Source of the DNA: a virus
Virus record (IMG/VR): IMGVR_UViG_3300030110_000563
Coordinates: 1-31,895 of that record
Length of the DNA: 31,895 nucleotides
Reading direction: 5' to 3' (one strand)
Numbering within the stretch: position 1 is the stretch's first letter; each line of letters opens with the position of its first letter. Below the pieces are notes generated by a model, which was not told where the DNA came from, ran no database searches, and worked only from the letters and a program-made list of their open reading frames with translations. The translations under genes were made by a program, and so were the position numbers. Shown here in pieces: positions 15,715-24,076 of the stretch.

Positions 15715-16482
15715 GTGGCAGATAAACTTGTATATCTTGGCGCTGTATGGGGTAAAGACGGTTGGGGTGACGGTGCTTGGGGTGCTAATGGAAATGTATC
15801 TGTTGTAGGAACAGGTGCAGTAGGGACAGTAAGTTTTGTTCTGGACGAAAATATTGTTCCAACAGGTGTAGCAGGGACAAGTGCAGTAGGCACGGTTACC
15901 ATAAATCGCACTGGAGTTGCAGTTCCAACAGGTGTAGCAGGGACAGGTGCGGTAGGGACATTAGGTTTATCCTATAACAACATTGTGTATCTCGGTGCTG
16001 TATGGGGTAAAAATGGTTGGGGTGACGGTGCGTGGGGAGACAACGGAAATGTCTCTGTAGCAGGGACAGGCGCGGTAGGGACTGTAAGCATAGCTCTTTC
16101 AGACGCTATTGTACCAACAGGTGTAGCAGGAACAGGCGCAGTAGGTAGTGTAGGGATTATCAGAGATGATACAGTAATCCCAGCAGGTGTAGCAGGAACA
16201 GGCGCAGTAGGAACTGTAGTCATTTCTTTTGCAGAGTTGATTGTTCCAACAGGTGTAGCAGGAACAGGCGCAGTAGGAACAGGTACAGCCACTGTAATAC
16301 CAACAGCTACAGGTGTAGCAGGAACAGGCGCGGTAGGGACTGTAGGGTTAACGTTTAGTGGCTCAATAGTGCCTACGGGTGTAAGCGGTACGGGTGCGAT
16401 AGGAACGGTAGTTAGGGGTGGTTGGACAACAATAAATGATTCACAAACACCTAACTGGGTAGATATAAACAAAGCGGCATAG
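15715..16482 (+). CDS. VPTGVAGTGAVGT repeat virion protein
   Basis: A 255-residue protein (GTG start) built from about eight copies of a roughly 13-residue unit near PTGVAGTGAVGT, with variable linkers. A longer block (YLGAVWGK.GWGDGAWG..GNVSV) is present twice, about 87 residues apart, and the C-terminus is WTTINDSQTPNWVDINKAA. No charge clusters or membrane segment are seen. Repeats of this type occur in phage fibre and surface proteins and may form beta-helix or extended fibre strands. The gene lies directly upstream of the tail-fibre gene. Unlike the neighbours, it has few charged residues. Confidence 0.75.
   Translation: MADKLVYLGAVWGKDGWGDGAWGANGNVSVVGTGAVGTVSFVLDENIVPTGVAGTSAVGTVTINRTGVAVPTGVAGTGAVGTLGLSYNNIVYLGAVWGKNGWGDGAWGDNGNVSVAGTGAVGTVSIALSDAIVPTGVAGTGAVGSVGIIRDDTVIPAGVAGTGAVGTVVISFAELIVPTGVAGTGAVGTGTATVIPTATGVAGTGAVGTVGLTFSGSIVPTGVSGTGAIGTVVRGGWTTINDSQTPNWVDINKAA
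15800..16410 (+). repeat. Tandem coding repeat in the fibre-type gene
   Basis: Units beginning CCAACAGGTGTAGCAGG and ending GGCGCAGTAGG recur with very high nucleotide identity, at roughly 70-90 base spacing, between 15800 and 16410. The near-identity at synonymous positions points to recent expansion or gene conversion rather than old divergence. This is a protein-coding repeat, not CRISPR: spacers keep the reading frame and code for the linkers. Confidence 0.75.
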
Positions 16483-16491
16483 GAATATATC

Positions 16492-17484
16492 ATGGCTACT
16501 TACGTAAACAATTTAAGGCTTAAAGAAATTACCACGGGTGATGAAGACGGCACTTGGGGTACTAGTACAAATACTAATTTAGAGCTTATTGCTGACTCGC
16601 TTGGGTACAACACACAAGCAGCTTTTGCTTCAGACGGTAACGCTACTACAACTGTTGCTGACGGTGCGGCAGACCCAGCAAGAGCACTTTATTTTAAAGT
16701 TACTTCAGGTGCTACTTTAAGTGCTACTAGAGAACTTACAATAGCTCCTAATACATTATCTCGTTTAATGTGGATAGAAAATGCCACTACAGGTAGTCAG
16801 ACCATAACCATTAAACAAGGTTCAGGTGCTACTATTAATATTGGCACTGGGGAAACTAAAATAGTTTATTTAGATGGAGCAGGGGCTGGAGCTGCTGTTG
16901 TAGACGCTTTAGCTAATTTTAATCTAAATCTAGCAAGTCAAATTACTGGTACTTTGCCTGTAGCAAATGGCGGCACTGGAATTACATCTTTCGGCACTGG
17001 AGTAGCAACGTGGATAGGCACACCTTCTAGTGCTAATTTGCGCTCTGCGGTTACTGATGAAACTGGCACAGGGGCTTTAGTGTTTGCTACAAGTCCAACT
17101 CTTGTTACGCCAGCTTTAGGAACCCCTGCTTCAGGCAACCTTCAAAGTTGTACCGCAGACGGTACGGATGAAGTTGGTTTTAGAAACGCTCCTGCGGTGG
17201 GAACAAAAACAGGCAGTTACACGCTTGCTGTAGGGGATGTTGGCAAATATGTCCAATGCGGCTCTAGCGGTGCGATTGTAATACCTAACTCTACTTTTGC
17301 AGAAGGCGATGTAATTTCTATTTTTAATAACACCACAGGTGATGTGACCATAACTTGTACAATCACTACTGCTTACAAAGCAGGTGAGGACGCTGATATT
17401 GCTACGGCAACTTTAGCCACGAGAGGGGTTGCCACTATTTTATTTATTAGCGCAACCGTGTGTGTCATTACTGGAAACATATAA
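16492..17484 (+). CDS. Tail fibre protein
   Basis: A 330-residue protein with the TLPVANGGTGITSFGTGV and TDETGTGALVFATSPTLVTP motifs and GTPASGNLQSC (residues about 155-215), classic phage tail-fibre sequence, following an N-terminal beta domain that begins MATYVNNLRLKEITTGDEDG. The C-terminal beta part (about 235-330) is unlike the motif region and could be the receptor-binding end. It probably contributes to host adsorption. TAGGA lies upstream. It is flanked by the repeat protein and the RCC1 protein, so 15715-18648 forms a surface-recognition block. Confidence 0.85.
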   Translation: MATYVNNLRLKEITTGDEDGTWGTSTNTNLELIADSLGYNTQAAFASDGNATTTVADGAADPARALYFKVTSGATLSATRELTIAPNTLSRLMWIENATTGSQTITIKQGSGATINIGTGETKIVYLDGAGAGAAVVDALANFNLNLASQITGTLPVANGGTGITSFGTGVATWIGTPSSANLRSAVTDETGTGALVFATSPTLVTPALGTPASGNLQSCTADGTDEVGFRNAPAVGTKTGSYTLAVGDVGKYVQCGSSGAIVIPNSTFAEGDVISIFNNTTGDVTITCTITTAYKAGEDADIATATLATRGVATILFISATVCVITGNI

Positions 17485-17496
17485 GGGTAACTACTT

Positions 17497-18648
17497 ATGT
17501 CTGGAATAACTTTAATGATGCTGGGCAACTTTGCGTTAGCTTCAGGCGCTACGCCTTCTAGTCTTTATGTTTGGGGTGGTAACTATAACGGATCATCAGC
17601 AAGAAATTTAAACGATACTGCGGGTGAAAGCTCTTCTCCTATTCAATTAGGTTCCGAAACAGATTGGCTTCAATTTTCAGGTGCTTATAACTTTGTTGGA
17701 ACTCGTTCAAGTGGTCATCTGTATAGTTGCGGAGACGGAAGATTTGGTTGTTGGAATACAGGGCTTAACGCTTCTTCGCCTATTCAAATAGGTTCGTTAA
17801 CTAATTGGACGGGTGGAGTTCTAAACCAAGAAGGCGTTGCTTGTCACGTCATTAAAAAAGATGGATCGCTTTGGGGTTGGGGAGAGAATGATTACGGAGC
17901 GGTTGGAGTAAACACTGGCTCAGGCGACATTTCAAAATATTCATCTCCTGTGCAAATTGGGTCGCTTACAACGTGGGCTTGGACTACTGGAGGGGGTTAC
18001 GCGGCGGTTCAAGCAGTCAAAACAGATGGCACTCTGTGGACGTGGGGGATAGCTTCTCAAGGAGGTTTAGGTAATAGCACAGACACGCCAAATAAATCAT
18101 CCCCTGTACAAATTGGCTCTTTAACCAACTGGCTAAAAGGAGCTAGCGGCGGTGAAAATCACCAAATACATGTTAAAACAGATGGCACTTTATGGACTTG
18201 GGGAAATAATAATTATGGGCAGTTGGGGAATGGTGGTACAGGTAATACGAATAGTCCTAACCAAGTAGGTTCAAGTACGGGTTGGACGGCTTGTGGCGCA
18301 GGTTATCAAACTTCAGGAGCCATTGACGCTGGTAAATTGTATATGGCAGGTAGAAACAATAATGGAGAACTTGGGCGCAATGTGACGACCACCACTCAGA
18401 CCACCTTTCAGCAAGTGGGTGCGTTAACCACTTGGGAAGACATTAGGCCCGGAAACGGTATAACTCTTGCGAAAAAAACCGATGGAACTATATGGGCATG
18501 GGGAGCTAATTGGATAGGTCAAGCGGGGCAAAGCACTAAAAACCCCGTAAAGTATTCTTCCCCTGTACAAATAGGCTCTCAAACGGATTGGACGGCTATA
18601 CATCTAGGTACAACCGGTAGTGCTACTGCTATGGGAGGTAGAGCATAA
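17497..18648 (+). CDS. RCC1-repeat beta-propeller protein
   Basis: A 383-residue protein with seven RCC1-like repeats beginning near residues 23, 75, 125, 180, 232, 281 and 332. Each has the pattern [LI][WY].WG.N..G followed by SSP.QIGS.T.W; blades two and six carry Cys or Ala in the WG position. The period is about 51 residues and seven repeats would close one propeller. A short hydrophobic start (MSGITLMMLGNFALAS) may be an anchor or signal-like strand. RCC1 propellers usually mediate protein or glycan contacts. Between a fibre gene and the sulfation cassette it is probably a distal tail/receptor component. Confidence 0.83.
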   Translation: MSGITLMMLGNFALASGATPSSLYVWGGNYNGSSARNLNDTAGESSSPIQLGSETDWLQFSGAYNFVGTRSSGHLYSCGDGRFGCWNTGLNASSPIQIGSLTNWTGGVLNQEGVACHVIKKDGSLWGWGENDYGAVGVNTGSGDISKYSSPVQIGSLTTWAWTTGGGYAAVQAVKTDGTLWTWGIASQGGLGNSTDTPNKSSPVQIGSLTNWLKGASGGENHQIHVKTDGTLWTWGNNNYGQLGNGGTGNTNSPNQVGSSTGWTACGAGYQTSGAIDAGKLYMAGRNNNGELGRNVTTTTQTTFQQVGALTTWEDIRPGNGITLAKKTDGTIWAWGANWIGQAGQSTKNPVKYSSPVQIGSQTDWTAIHLGTTGSATAMGGRA

Positions 18649-18651
18649 AGT

Positions 18652-20475
18652 ATGAAAAAGCTCCACTTCTTAGCAGGACTACCTCGGTCGGGTTCTACCG
18701 TACTTGCTGCACTCTTAAAACAACATCCTGAGTTACATACTACCGCAACGTCTGGCTTATTAGGAATCTTGACGGCGATGCTAAGAGCTTGGGAAGAGTG
18801 TGAGCCAGCGCGGATCGGTACTGATAGGATTCCTCAAGAAAAGGGCGATGCAATCAAAGCACTTTGCGAAGTCAAATGTCGGGATACAGATAAAAACATT
18901 ATTTTAAATAAAGAGAGAGGGTGGGTAAAAGCGCAAAATATACACACTATGGAAATGTCTTTGGGTTATCCCCCTAAGATTATTGCTACCGTTCGCAATG
19001 TAGAAGATTGTGTAGCGTCTATGGTACGCATTGCAAAACCTAATGAACTTTCTTCTTTTTTACGAGAATCTCCCTACGTTAAGCATATTCAAGAATCTTA
19101 TGTAGATTTGCTAAAAGCTCATCACTGGAAGAGAGAATATATTTATTATGTGGATTATGATGAGTTAAACAGTAATCCAGAAGAAACTTTACGAGGGATA
19201 GAAAAGTTTTTAGAACTTTCTCCCCATACCTATGATACGGACAATATTGATGCTACTGGCCTTCACGAAAAAGACGAAGAAGTCTGGGGCATAAAAGGGT
19301 TACATGATGTTCGTAAACAATTAAAACAAGCTATTGTTCCTTCCGCGCAAGATGTTTTACAACATCGGTACAGAGATTTTGTCCAACCTCGTTTTTGGCA
19401 AGGTGAGACAAGTTCGCGTCTTCCTATACATAAGTTAGACATGATGTTAGCGGCAGGGTTGCTTGGTAATTTAGATGAGGCAGCAAAATTAGGAGACGAA
19501 CTTGGTCGTGAAGAACCCCGTAATGACCGAGCGGCTTTTAATCGTGGATGGTATGAGTTACGTAAAGGAAAACTTTTAGACGGACACCGCCTTCTTGTAC
19601 GGGGTAGGAACGAAGATGTATTTGGTAACCCCAACCCCAGTTCGCCAGTGCCTCTTTGGGATGGAAAAAGCAAAGGTACAGTCTTGCTTAACCTTGAAGG
19701 TGGTTTAGGCGATCAGATTCACGGTGCAGGAATGGTGCGCTACATTGTAAATAAAGGTTGCGAGGTGATTGTGGCTTGCTCTCCAGAGTTAACAAGTCTT
19801 TTTCGAGATGTTCCCGGTGTCAGTGCCGTGGTTGTAACGAAAGCTGCGGGTGGTGTCGTACACGATTTTTGGGTTCCTGCTATGTCTGCCGTGATACCTC
19901 TTGAGCTACAGTATGCCGATGTTGATGGGTCACCTTATATTTCTAAGCCGCTAACTCCTCTAAATAAAAAATTACGAATAGGGCTTAGATGGCAAGGCAA
20001 TCCAAAGTTTGAACATGAGCAGCATAGGTTATTTCCAAGCAGTAAGTTGTTTGATGCAGTAAAGGATATAGAGGCAGATTTTGTATCTTTACAGCGTGAC
20101 GAGGGTTCGCAGCATAAACCAGAATGGGTAAAAGAAGTTTCACTTCAACATTGGGGCGACACTCGACACGCTATTGCAACTTGTGATTTAGTAATTACCT
20201 CATGTACTTCTGTAGCTCACCTATCAGCGGCAATGGGGGTAGATACTTGGATACTAGTCCCTATTCTTCCTTATTATTTGTGGGCAAAACCGGGAAATAA
20301 GTCGGAGTGGTACGACAGTGTTACTTTGTTTAGGCAAACGACTTATGGAAATTGGGATGAGCCTTTTGAAAAAGTAAAAGAAAATTTAGGAGATACACAT
20401 GGTTACAAAAACAGGATATTGGATTCAAGTTGTAGACGGCCAAGTGAAAGAAGTTTGGGACACCACGCCGCCTAG
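18652..20475 (+). CDS. Sulfotransferase-glycosyltransferase fusion
   Basis: A 607-residue fusion. The N-terminal sulfotransferase (about 1-225) has the PAPS 5'-phosphosulfate loop GLPRSGST (9-16) and a 3'-phosphate motif RNVEDCVASMVR (115-126). Residues 262-320 look TPR-like (LLGNLDEAAKLGDELGREEP). The C-terminal part (about 340-580) has NLEGGLGDQIHGAGMVRYIV (347-366), LRIGLRWQGNP and DLVITSCTSVAHLSAAMGV, as in GT-B glycosyltransferases of the heptosyltransferase/TPR-linked type. It could sulfate and extend the same glycan. The last 27 residues overlap the start of the next gene out of frame and look like a read-through tail. PAPS would come from the kinase at 21507. Acceptor unknown. Confidence 0.83.
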   Translation: MKKLHFLAGLPRSGSTVLAALLKQHPELHTTATSGLLGILTAMLRAWEECEPARIGTDRIPQEKGDAIKALCEVKCRDTDKNIILNKERGWVKAQNIHTMEMSLGYPPKIIATVRNVEDCVASMVRIAKPNELSSFLRESPYVKHIQESYVDLLKAHHWKREYIYYVDYDELNSNPEETLRGIEKFLELSPHTYDTDNIDATGLHEKDEEVWGIKGLHDVRKQLKQAIVPSAQDVLQHRYRDFVQPRFWQGETSSRLPIHKLDMMLAAGLLGNLDEAAKLGDELGREEPRNDRAAFNRGWYELRKGKLLDGHRLLVRGRNEDVFGNPNPSSPVPLWDGKSKGTVLLNLEGGLGDQIHGAGMVRYIVNKGCEVIVACSPELTSLFRDVPGVSAVVVTKAAGGVVHDFWVPAMSAVIPLELQYADVDGSPYISKPLTPLNKKLRIGLRWQGNPKFEHEQHRLFPSSKLFDAVKDIEADFVSLQRDEGSQHKPEWVKEVSLQHWGDTRHAIATCDLVITSCTSVAHLSAAMGVDTWILVPILPYYLWAKPGNKSEWYDSVTLFRQTTYGNWDEPFEKVKENLGDTHGYKNRILDSSCRRPSERSLGHHAA

Positions 20476-20812
20476 TAATCAAGAAGGTTGGCGTGAAGCA
20501 GTAGAGGTTTTTCCAGACCTTGTTGCTAACCGAGAAATGTTTACAACACATTCTTTTGACCTTGAGGCTACTCCAGCACAAATTGTGTGGGCCAAAAGAG
20601 AGCTTACAGTTGGTGAACGTAAAGGCAGTTTAGTTGCTTCAGCAAACGCTGATTTTGAAATAGTAGTAAGAAGAGAGTTAGCCAAAGAAATAGATAACTA
20701 CCCTACAACTCAGTATGACGCTTCAGCCGTAGCCACCGCACAAGCAATTTATGAATCCCGTATAGATGTTATTAATGCTGCCGAAACACATGATGATGTG
20801 GATGGTTTATAG
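20399..20812 (+). CDS. Hypothetical phage protein, fibre-assembly-like
   Basis: A 137-residue protein, MVTKTGYWIQVVDGQVKEVW..., with GWREAVEVFPDLVANREMFT (29-48) and TPAQIVWAKRELT. The WREAVEVFPDL... pattern recalls small phage proteins near tail genes, but I assign no function. TTAGGAG six bases before the ATG is the best ribosome site in the region and fixes this start, although it lies 77 bases inside the preceding gene. Its TAG overlaps the GTG of the next gene. Confidence 0.72.
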   Translation: MVTKTGYWIQVVDGQVKEVWDTTPPSNQEGWREAVEVFPDLVANREMFTTHSFDLEATPAQIVWAKRELTVGERKGSLVASANADFEIVVRRELAKEIDNYPTTQYDASAVATAQAIYESRIDVINAAETHDDVDGL

Positions 20813-21510
20813 TGAATCTTTTTTTCTCTTACAATTTAGAAGTAGATTCAGCGTATATTATTCGAGTCAAAGGACTTGAGGATTCTGAGTGTAAGGCTAA
20901 AAATTGTGCAGCTTCTTGTGAACAGGTAGGACAACAATACAAATATTGGGATGCTTACAATGGCATTGACGGTGAAATACAAGCACCGGATCACCATAAC
21001 CCGATTATGGATTGCGTTAAAATCATAGACCATTACATGACAAGAGGAGAAGTTGCTTGCGCTCTTTCCCATATTTCGTTATGGGCAAAATGTGTAACAG
21101 AAGATAAGCCTTTGGTGGTCTTGGAGCATGACAGCATAATGGTGAAGCCCTATACCAAACACGCTGTTTATAATTCTATTTGTTATTTAGGAAGCCATGA
21201 ACAAGTACAACAGGGATGGGATGTGTTACCAACTCCTCCTCATGCAAGCGAAGGCCCAAATTATCATTTTATTTGTCGCGCTCATGCCTACGCTATTGAT
21301 CCTGCGGTAGCTAAAAGTATGTTGGCTTACGTTATTAAATACGGGCTTACAGGGCCGTTAGACATTTTATTAAGAGCTGATTTATTTCCTATCCATCAAA
21401 TGGGTGTTTATGCCTACAACAAATGGGATGGCGATAAATTAGATACGACCATTAAAGGGAGGCCACTAGAAGGCCGAAGCACTACCCGCAACGATGATTT
21501 GAAAATATGA
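20812..21510 (+). CDS. GT25-like glycosyltransferase
   Basis: A 232-residue protein starting at GTG 20812. It shows the GT25 pattern: a start with YIIRVKGLEDS, GEVACALSHISLW (79-91), the metal-binding PLVVLEHDSIM (100-110), YHFICRAHAYAID (151-163) and GPLDILL (181-187). GT25 enzymes transfer sugars, often galactose, onto lipooligosaccharide. It would extend a glycan that the neighbouring sulfotransferase and DXD glycosyltransferase also act on. Coupled to both neighbours by one-base and four-base overlaps. Donor and acceptor cannot be told. Confidence 0.82.
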   Translation: MNLFFSYNLEVDSAYIIRVKGLEDSECKAKNCAASCEQVGQQYKYWDAYNGIDGEIQAPDHHNPIMDCVKIIDHYMTRGEVACALSHISLWAKCVTEDKPLVVLEHDSIMVKPYTKHAVYNSICYLGSHEQVQQGWDVLPTPPHASEGPNYHFICRAHAYAIDPAVAKSMLAYVIKYGLTGPLDILLRADLFPIHQMGVYAYNKWDGDKLDTTIKGRPLEGRSTTRNDDLKI

Positions 21511-21938
21511 AAAAGTGTGTGGTGTTACTTACTGGTTTACCCAACAGCGGAAAAACAACGTTGGCTAAGTCACTTGTAGCAAAGCATGGAGGTTGTCACA
21601 TTAACGCCGATGAAGTTAGGGCGGCTTTGCACGATTGGGACTTTTCTATGGAGGGAAGGTTTAGACAGTTTAACCGGATGAAAGAAGCGGCTAATTATAA
21701 AAAAGGGTTAGTTTTTTTAGATTTCATTTGCCCTATAGACGCATGGCGTAAAAAACTAAACGCTGATTTGGTGGTTTGGATGGACACGGTGCAAATTTCT
21801 GAATACACAGATACTAACAAAATGTTTGAACGTCCTTCGCAGTATGATATGCGTGTTACTAATATAGATACTTTAGCTAAAGTAGAACATGAACTACTTT
21901 TGCATATAGGAAAAAATTTAAAAGCTAATGATTCCTAA
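21507..21938 (+). CDS. APS-kinase-like P-loop kinase
   Basis: A 143-residue kinase with the Walker A loop LTGLPNSGKTT (8-18), a NADEVRAALHDWDFSMEGR segment (33-51) that follows the APS-kinase DGDxVR...LgFS..dR pattern, and VFLDFICPIDAWRKKL (69-84), matching the FISP region with Cys in place of Ser. It is shorter than bacterial CysC (about 200), mainly at the C-terminus, where the lid is usually found. APS kinase makes PAPS from APS and ATP, the donor for the sulfotransferase two genes upstream. A related polynucleotide or nucleoside kinase is the main alternative. The catalytic state is untested. Confidence 0.68.
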   Translation: MKKCVVLLTGLPNSGKTTLAKSLVAKHGGCHINADEVRAALHDWDFSMEGRFRQFNRMKEAANYKKGLVFLDFICPIDAWRKKLNADLVVWMDTVQISEYTDTNKMFERPSQYDMRVTNIDTLAKVEHELLLHIGKNLKANDS

Positions 21939-22638
21939 AACAGTACATATGTCGTGGAAAGACAAGAGTATTCTTGAAAGTACAAATCCCTTAGTGGTGG
22001 AGGGAGTCAAAAAAGTTATTGAGCTAAACCCAAATTGGGAAGTTACTATTTATGATGATGCAGAAGTAGACGCTTACTTAAAAGAGCAATTAGAACCACA
22101 GCATTATGAATTGATCCAAGATAAACACATAGTCCAGAAAACAGACCTTTGGCGTTTAGTCAAACTGTTTATCGAAGGTGGTGTTTATATGGATATAGAT
22201 CGTTTTTGTAATACTAGCTTTGATAGCTTGTTAGAAGAAGGGGATAAGTGGGTTTTACCTATATGTAGAGACTATGATTTCTCACATGATTTTATGATGA
22301 CAGCACCTGAAAACCCAACGTATAACTATGCGGCTTCTTTGTACGTGCAAAGGTTAATAGAAGGACACGATAATATTTATTTTTTAGGGCCACAAACTTA
22401 TATGCACGCTGTTACTCAAGCACTTTGTGGAGAAATGATTGATCCAGACCCCGAGGTAGAGGTTTTTGAAAGAATTAAGCAACAAGCCAGTACTAGCGGA
22501 TTTATAAAGGTTTACGATGAAGACCCGCCATATGATACTGTTATCTATAAAAATGGTGCGCTGAAGTTAGATTGGGAAACAGAAAAACGTAAACTTTACA
22601 AAGAGTTCGGCTTAAAACATTGGACAGGCGATTGGTAA
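21928..22638 (+). CDS. GT32-like DXD glycosyltransferase
   Basis: A 236-residue protein with the start MIPKTVHMSWKDKS, KTDLWRLVKLFIEGG (71-85) and the DXD motif VYMDIDRF (Asp89/Asp91), the pattern of GT32/OCH1-like glycosyltransferases that use a metal-bound nucleotide sugar. The C-terminus ends GLKHWTGDW, similar to the usual his/trp tail. It overlaps the kinase gene by 11 bases, so it is co-translated. It probably adds another sugar in the same surface glycan pathway. Confidence 0.82.
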   Translation: MIPKTVHMSWKDKSILESTNPLVVEGVKKVIELNPNWEVTIYDDAEVDAYLKEQLEPQHYELIQDKHIVQKTDLWRLVKLFIEGGVYMDIDRFCNTSFDSLLEEGDKWVLPICRDYDFSHDFMMTAPENPTYNYAASLYVQRLIEGHDNIYFLGPQTYMHAVTQALCGEMIDPDPEVEVFERIKQQASTSGFIKVYDEDPPYDTVIYKNGALKLDWETEKRKLYKEFGLKHWTGDW

Positions 22639-22842: not shown

Positions 22843-23327
22843 TTGGGGAAGCGATGATAGCGATTAAAGCCTTGGACAGCGCATTTGTCATGGTTCAGGG
22901 TGCGATTGCTAAAAAGAAAGAAGTGGAGGATATGGCTGGTGAAGTGGGCCGTTTCTTTACTGCTAAGAAAAAAGTTGAGGAGCATATTACAAGGGCACGT
23001 TTGGCTGGTGATGACGACATAATGATAGGAAGTGCTTTAGAGGAAGCCATTACTATTGACCAGCAGGAAGAGCGCATTGAAAAGATGATGAACAAAATAC
23101 GTGACCATTACTCACGTAAAGGACAAACCCACCGTTGGGTTAAGATCAAAGCAGAGGCCGCTAAGATTGAGAAGAAAAGAGCAGTTAAGAAGAAAGCGAA
23201 AGCGGCAGCAACCAAACAGGAAGACGCTTTAATACACGACTTAGCGGTAATGTTTGGGTGGGTGATAGGAACAGTCATAGTAATTTTTGGAGTAGTATTT
23301 TTAATATTTGGATTAGGTGCTGAGTAA
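22839..23327 (+). CDS. Coiled-coil protein with C-terminal membrane segment
   Basis: A 162-residue protein from ATG 22839, which overlaps the upstream stop by four bases; GTG 22830 is less likely. Residues 1-130 are helical and charged with KKKEVEDMAGEVGRFFTAKK and many Lys/Glu pairs; residues about 138-159 (VMFGWVIGTVIVIFGVVFLI) form one transmembrane helix. It is thus probably a tail-anchored cytoplasmic protein. Similar proteins exist in marine phage lysis regions, but neither holin nor spanin signatures are complete. It could be a structural or lysis-timing protein. Confidence 0.72.
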   Translation: MIGEAMIAIKALDSAFVMVQGAIAKKKEVEDMAGEVGRFFTAKKKVEEHITRARLAGDDDIMIGSALEEAITIDQQEERIEKMMNKIRDHYSRKGQTHRWVKIKAEAAKIEKKRAVKKKAKAAATKQEDALIHDLAVMFGWVIGTVIVIFGVVFLIFGLGAE

Positions 23328-24076
23328 TGAAACTAGACCCTGTACTACTTAATATGGCTTGCTCGTGGAGTATGAAGGCGTACGATGATGAGAACAAAAA
23401 GTCCATCAAGATAGAAAGCCGACTAACCTCTACTACTGTATATATAGCTAAACGTAAGACGATAGATGTGATTGCATTCAGGGGTACACAACAAGGCCAA
23501 GATTGGCTAACCGATGCAATGGTAGTACCCGTACCTTACGCAGGTAGGTTGTGCCACGGCGGGTTTGTAGCTGCCCATGCTTCAGTGTGGCGTAAGATTA
23601 AAAAACACCTAGATATGAAGAAACGTACACTAGTCTGTGGGCATAGTCTTGGTGGTGCGTTAGCAGAGCTAACAGCGGCTAAGTTGTGGAAGAAACACCC
23701 TAACCTCAATCTTATTACCTTTGGTAAGCCGAATACGTTCTTCAAGGGATTTAAACGCCCTATGACGTTAGATAAACAAATTTCCTGCGTGGCTGGTTCT
23801 GACATGGTGGCGCGTATACCCCGCATTTGCTATGGCCCTTCTAAGTCACAGACTATGCTGTACTTTGCCAATAGTGGGCAAGACTTTATTGATCCTACAA
23901 AAGATTTACGGGATAAAGACAGAGGTGGGTTAAAAGACCGGATTACTGACCACTTTATGGGAGGCTATAAAGAACGGTTAGAGGGGTTTTTAGATAATCA
24001 AAACGAAGAACTTAAACTTAGTGAAGAAGAAGTAAAAGAATTAAAAACACTTATTAATGAGGTTAAAGATGGTTAG
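23327..24076 (+). CDS. Class 3 lipase-like hydrolase
   Basis: A 249-residue alpha/beta hydrolase of the lipase class 3 type. VIAFRGTQQGQDWLTD (48-63) carries the oxyanion region, CGHSLGGALAELTA (104-117) holds nucleophile Ser107, and Asp159 (GSDMVARIP) and His209 (ITDHFMGGY) are in the right places for the triad. No signal peptide is seen, so holin or membrane disruption would be needed to reach the outer membrane, or it acts on cytoplasmic membrane lipids. It lies directly before the lipoprotein, holin and endolysin genes, so a lysis role is likely but inferred; hydrolysis of other esters is possible. Confidence 0.83.
   Translation: MKLDPVLLNMACSWSMKAYDDENKKSIKIESRLTSTTVYIAKRKTIDVIAFRGTQQGQDWLTDAMVVPVPYAGRLCHGGFVAAHASVWRKIKKHLDMKKRTLVCGHSLGGALAELTAAKLWKKHPNLNLITFGKPNTFFKGFKRPMTLDKQISCVAGSDMVARIPRICYGPSKSQTMLYFANSGQDFIDPTKDLRDKDRGGLKDRITDHFMGGYKERLEGFLDNQNEELKLSEEEVKELKTLINEVKDG

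Follow-up and report, generated by a model that had tools for sequence, protein, structure and literature searches.

The viral record IMGVR_UViG_3300030110_000563 from IMG/VR, analysed over its whole length of 31,895 nt (31.9 kb; the window), contains at positions 18652-22638 a block of genes for a sulfotransferase fusion protein, a small P-loop kinase and glycosyltransferases. This block represents a conserved decoration cassette of phages, with a tail propeller of RCC1 repeats, encoded immediately upstream, as its most likely target. According to the reading preferred here, the cassette would glycosylate and sulfate this propeller on the virion, and the kinase would raise the supply of 3'-phosphoadenosine 5'-phosphosulfate (PAPS), using adenosine 5'-phosphosulfate (APS) of the host. 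This reading is held tentatively, at a probability of about 0.45; sulfation by the cassette is likely.

The sulfotransferase fusion and the upstream RCC1 gene

Residues 1-250 of the fusion match the Pfam families Sulfotransfer_3 (PF13469; 6e-16, 59.8 bits, cut-off 27) and Sulfotransfer_1 (PF00685; 6.8e-10, 39.2 bits, cut-off 22). The nearest solved structures are human and tick tyrosylprotein sulfotransferases (TPST1/2), with a best profile match of 1.7e-14, and TPST is also closest by fold (Foldseek, 1.9e-8). The PAPS 5'-loop PRSGxT is present as PRSGST at residues 11-16. Of the residues binding the 3'-phosphate, Ser123 is the same in all of 14 relatives and Arg115 in nearly all. Loop and Arg/Ser pair are common to the fusion and TPST, while the added TPR-type domain distinguishes the phage protein. 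A sulfotransferase with PAPS-binding motifs, as proposed in an earlier note on this DNA, is thus supported by the profiles. Viral contigs contain at least 588 stretches coding for relatives of the fusion. Of the 80 best, almost all are fusions over their full length, so that the protein is not the chimera of a single contig. At one locus (L342, 4728-5510), the sulfotransferase domain downstream of RCC1 is split across two open reading frames (ORFs), possibly by a frameshift.

An RCC1 gene immediately precedes the fusion gene in 61 of 66 non-redundant loci having an upstream gene; in most of them, the two are separated by a few bases or overlap. A search anchored on RCC1 returned only seven loci, four with a sulfotransferase, which is too few for statistics. 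The C-terminal domain shares homology with TPR proteins encoded by phages S-SRM01 and ctDrO704. In cyanophage S-SRM01, such a protein (E 3e-48) is encoded directly after the RCC1 gene, and in cyanophage BUCT-ZZ01 a relative with 39% identity directly follows a gene annotated as BNR repeat, which is RCC1 (2e-130). These proteins of cultured cyanophages share domain and gene position with the fusion but lack the sulfotransferase domain; in S-SRM01 a 2-oxoglutarate (2OG)-Fe(II) oxygenase gene is adjoining. Since the RCC1 linkage is kept without a sulfotransferase, the C-terminal domain appears to be tied to RCC1 itself, and the linkage together with the cyanophage gene order makes the phage tail propeller, not a host glycan, the likely target. 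The earlier note had left the choice between virion and host surface open; the linkage favours the virion.

RCC1 is the fastest-evolving gene of the block, with a ratio of nonsynonymous to synonymous substitution rates (dN/dS) of 0.39-0.52. Compared with the related locus L010, identity drops to 40% for RCC1, 55% for the sulfotransferase domain and 62% for a 137-aa ORF of the cassette, while the P22 gp10-like protein and the tail gene at 16492 stay 96-98% identical. The joint divergence of the three could reflect an enzyme matched to its RCC1 protein; common recombination of the block would give a similar pattern.

Genomic setting and composition of the cassette

Terminase, portal, capsid, tail, holin-like, lysozyme, and P22 gp10-like genes are encoded in the window, which has a G+C content of 43%. 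For terminase and gp10-like protein, the closest relatives are those of Pelagibacter phages HTVC023P/HTVC027P and of phage DSL-LC04. As these phages have genomes of about 60 kb each, about half of a phage genome is probably contained in the window. The best explanation is a part of a P22-type marine podovirus genome, with the block as a late-gene decoration cassette. Other enzymes, for example 2OG-Fe(II) oxygenases, are encoded at a similar place in the genomes of DSL-LC04 and HTVC023P, suggesting a variable decoration slot.

The block is located between tail genes and lysis genes with every ORF on the plus strand (Table 1), and successive ORFs from 18652 on overlap by 77, 1, 4, and 11 bases. 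Coordinates, orientation, overlapping arrangement and proximity to tail genes were all confirmed as described in the earlier note, and relatives have kept the same set. The gene order is kept in independent contigs and purifying selection acts on the genes (dN/dS of 0.07-0.08 for the GT25 gene and 0.035-0.12 for the kinase gene); therefore, the cassette is more than a chance arrangement. The GT25 and GT32 domains named in the earlier note pass the curated Pfam cut-offs, with 52.3 bits for PF01755 (cut-off 24) and 45.1 bits for PF04488 (cut-off 23), the latter protein having its DXD motif in GGVYMDIDR. The 137-aa ORF was not mentioned in that note. It gave no match in a Pfam search and is kept in relatives, as is its 77-base overlap, in a different frame, with the fusion gene.

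Table 1. Genes of the cassette and the RCC1 gene preceding it
Feature	Position	Strand	Matches or motifs
RCC1-repeat beta-propeller, probably tail fibre/receptor-binding, proposed acceptor	17497..18648	+	Pfam RCC1 4.1e-28, WD40_RLD 5.2e-48
Fusion of sulfotransferase (aa ~1-250) and TPR/GT-like C-terminal domain (aa ~260-607), 607 aa, FLAGLPRSGSTVL	18652..20475	+	
137-aa conserved ORF, possible tail assembly protein, co-varies with RCC1 and fusion	20399..20812	+	
GT25-type glycosyltransferase	20812..21510	+	Pfam Glyco_transf_25 8.4e-14; PDB GT25 1e-3
143-aa APS-kinase-like P-loop kinase, without lid, without C-terminal nucleotidylyltransferase	21507..21938	+	NADEVR, DFICP
GT32/DXD-type glycosyltransferase	21928..22638	+	Pfam Gly_transf_sug 1.6e-11; PDB YeGT glycosyltransferase 4e-8

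A class 3 lipase gene (23327-24076; Lipase_3 4.6e-19) is found after the cassette and before the holin and lysozyme genes. Its product is 78-79% identical to those of relatives with 97-98% identical gp10. A protein of repeated VAGTGAVGTV-type units is encoded at 15715-16482, adjoining the tail genes, and has no match in PHROGs. A defence system was also considered and rejected, as PADLOC gave only weak P-loop matches and others at chance level.

The kinase family and its nucleotidylyltransferase partner

The kinase matches the Pfam families AAA_33 (1.1e-7) and APS_kinase (1.6e-7; 31.9 bits, cut-off 21.1). A profile search yielded mainly APS kinases, and the 17 best Foldseek matches in PDB to a structure predicted for its relative of 252 aa (pLDDT 90) are all APS kinases. 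In an alignment with a genuine SAR11 CysC, Walker A, Asp35, Arg38, Phe46, Arg51, Arg57, and Pro76 are kept. Of the motifs of the APS pocket, NADxxR (for DGDxxR), WDF, and FICP (for FISP) are present, including the two stretches reported in the earlier note, and RxxN reads RxxQ.

In relatives of the kinase, an HxGH nucleotidylyltransferase is C-terminally fused or encoded adjacently; it is in view in 17 of 38 non-redundant groups. Outwardly, this resembles PAPS synthases, which combine kinase and ATP sulfurylase. The partner domain matches adenylyltransferases of nicotinamide mononucleotide (NMN; MJ0541, 3.6e-6) and CTP_transf_like. Against the ATP-sulfurylase Pfam family its best E value is 0.002 (17.9 bits, cut-off 24.3), and hhalign with SAR11 Sat gave a probability of 4%; a true ATP sulfurylase is thus unsupported. 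No ATP sulfurylase was detected among the cassette ORFs by a Pfam scan, nor did any phage record score above the cut-off of that family. The window lineage has no nucleotidylyltransferase, whereas in the L010 counterpart it is fused to the kinase. Taking into account L010, L013, and the fusions in Clavibacter phage 33 (L002) and Stenotrophomonas phage DLP_6 (L003), the partner was probably lost in the window lineage rather than never present, and APS would consequently have to come from the host. The self-contained sulfation pathway proposed in the earlier note is therefore not upheld; the best reading is that APS or PAPS is drawn partly from the host. In the two named phages, no sulfotransferase is annotated in the vicinity of the fusion gene, which has MazG, topoisomerase, DNA ligase or Fe(II) oxygenase genes close by.

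A sulfotransferase is encoded in 20 of 80 viral loci centred on the kinase (12 of 70 without window-type loci) and in none of 78 control loci centred on DNA polymerase, a comparison that is indicative because the controls come from a different phage set. Position -1, immediately upstream of the kinase, is occupied by a sulfotransferase in 4 of 38 cases, compared to 6 of 339 elsewhere (p 0.012). In three loci (L070, L072, L075), a run of sulfotransferase, kinase, and nucleotidylyltransferase genes is located just downstream of large tail proteins with repeats that are not RCC1 but, as judged by eye, Kelch-like.

The kinase is also encoded on bacterial chromosomes. In 80 such loci (L167-L246), nearly all from Pelagibacteraceae, the nucleotidylyltransferase mostly adjoins the kinase, and a sulfotransferase within 8 kb of the kinase was found in none. 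Genes near the pair, named by eye from their sequences, include those for a Rieske oxygenase, a methyltransferase, and DmdA/GcvT-like, betaine-homocysteine methyltransferase-like, and EgtB/EgtD-like proteins, and would point to C1 and betaine metabolism. In a survey of 148 Pelagibacterales genomes, among them incomplete drafts, strong kinase matches were obtained in 105, and 11 more had the nucleotidylyltransferase only. CysD and an apsK above the cut-off occur together in the same six genomes (canonical CysD/CysNC), all devoid of the pair (hypergeometric 7e-5, phylogeny ignored). PF01747 Sat is present in seven genomes, and in five of these the kinase is found as well. Sulfotransferases were detected in 112 genomes and recognised ATP sulfurylases in 12. 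About 100 genomes have the former without the latter, so that the pair is a candidate route to PAPS. As a predictor of sulfotransferases across SAR11, presence of the pair is weak: at E 1e-3 they were found in 87/105 genomes with the kinase and 17/26 without pair or CysD, at E 1e-10 in 58/105 and 13/26. That the pair constitutes a minimal, so far unrecognised PAPS-making system of SAR11 strains without canonical sulfate activation, borrowed by phages for sulfation of tail propellers, is a doubtful and rather improbable proposal; if true, it would be the first pathway dedicated to the sulfation of virions.

Proposed role of the cassette

For decoration of the virion, the following steps are envisaged. 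The TPR part of the fusion would bind the beta-propeller encoded just upstream and, together with the GT25 and GT32 enzymes, assemble a glycan on this protein. The sulfotransferase domain would move sulfate from PAPS to this glycan or to the RCC1 protein itself, and the small kinase would most likely phosphorylate APS at the 3'-OH, raising PAPS. A sulfated and glycosylated tail tip might then alter receptor binding or shield the virion.

A number of observations weigh against this reading. The linkage to RCC1 is an association only. In the fusion, TATSG is found in place of the TPST segment GEETR, removing the catalytic Glu. Three glycosyltransferase domains had been claimed in the earlier note; besides GT25 and GT32, the third, of GT-B type in the C-terminal part of the fusion, is unproven. 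Pfam and PDB profile searches gave no significant match to this domain. The sole profile signal of GT-B type is GT9 at E 0.047 in one relative, and a weak Foldseek match to SPY (probability 0.41) falls in a region of low model confidence. In the kinase, RxxN is replaced by RxxQ, 16 residues are deleted relative to SAR11 CysC at the lid (RDPKGLYKKARxGxI in APS kinases), and the score of 26 bits is far below the curated cut-off of NCBIfam apsK (TIGR00455, 138.7 bits). Canonical apsK membership is therefore rejected and the protein is regarded as a putative APS kinase: the assignment in the earlier note is supported by Pfam cut-off, pocket residues, and fold neighbours, and weakened by lid and curated threshold. 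Compared to CysC, apsK, and PAPS synthases, the phage family is set apart by the missing lid, RxxQ, and the NMN adenylyltransferase-like partner, which the window version has lost. Finally, no sulfotransferase was detected in the neighbourhood of the kinase in 28 of the 38 non-redundant groups, and among the best 80 of at least 588 fusion loci only 17 contain the kinase within 8 kb. Kinase and sulfotransferase are thus separable, and the co-occurrence expected from the earlier note is seen only in part, most kinase relatives and all bacterial loci being without a neighbouring sulfotransferase.

It is possible, if somewhat questionable, that the kinase and its lost partner act outside sulfation, on another activated group such as a nucleotide-linked alcohol or in NAD-type salvage, and that the decoration is a different one. 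The resemblance of the partner to NMN adenylyltransferases and CTP_transf_like instead of ATP sulfurylase fits this explanation, as do the SAR11 loci with their Rieske, methyltransferase, and C1-type genes and the occurrence of the kinase in most Sat-bearing genomes. Campylobacter Cj1415 is an APS-kinase homologue using another nucleotide. The conserved APS-pocket residues and APS-kinase fold neighbours, the enrichment of sulfotransferases beside the kinase in viral loci, and the exclusion of the pair from the CysD/CysNC genomes argue for a role in sulfation.

Modification of the host surface is unlikely. In infected cells, sugars of lipopolysaccharide (LPS) or capsule would be added or sulfated, so that the receptor is masked and superinfection blocked. 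GT25 and GT32 enzymes often act on LPS or surface glycans, the Pfam description of GT25 is LPS biosynthesis, and receptor-related traits are frequently located next to tail genes. However, the tight RCC1 linkage across unrelated phages would be left unexplained, the nearest sulfotransferase structures modify proteins, and a setting of late structural and lysis genes, with holin-like and lysozyme genes after the cassette, fits the virion better than early alteration of the host. Hypermodification of phage DNA bases by the same enzymes is very improbable: base modification with glycosyltransferases and sulfotransferases was proposed from genome mining (Iyer et al. 2013, as cited in PMC10829341) and kinase homologues of T4-like and Casjensviridae phages lie near replication genes, but the cassette is linked to RCC1 tail genes and contains no base hydroxylase, thymidylate-synthase-like or other nucleotide-modifying gene, in a window of maybe half a genome.

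Decoration of the RCC1 propeller thus remains the preferred reading. Virion proteins of mycobacteriophages are decorated by phage glycosyltransferases (Freeman et al. 2023, as cited in PMC12619734). The decoration proposed for the window is alike in principle, with different phages and enzymes. To our knowledge, sulfation has not been reported for the mycobacteriophage system, and a phage system combining all parts of the cassette was not found in the literature searched. If the reading is correct, the propellers with which phages bind their receptors carry glycans that the phages themselves assemble and sulfate; no description of such a modification of the virion was found.

The family of the kinase deserves particular attention. 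Many viral 'cysC' genes are reported as genes of assimilatory sulfate reduction (e.g. PMC9789665). Among phage kinases matching Pfam APS_kinase, at least some are members of the lid-less family and are encoded next to genes for tail decoration or replication; a role in sulfur assimilation should be assigned to them only after a test. In SAR11, the kinase-nucleotidylyltransferase pair offers a testable source of PAPS for its common sulfotransferases.

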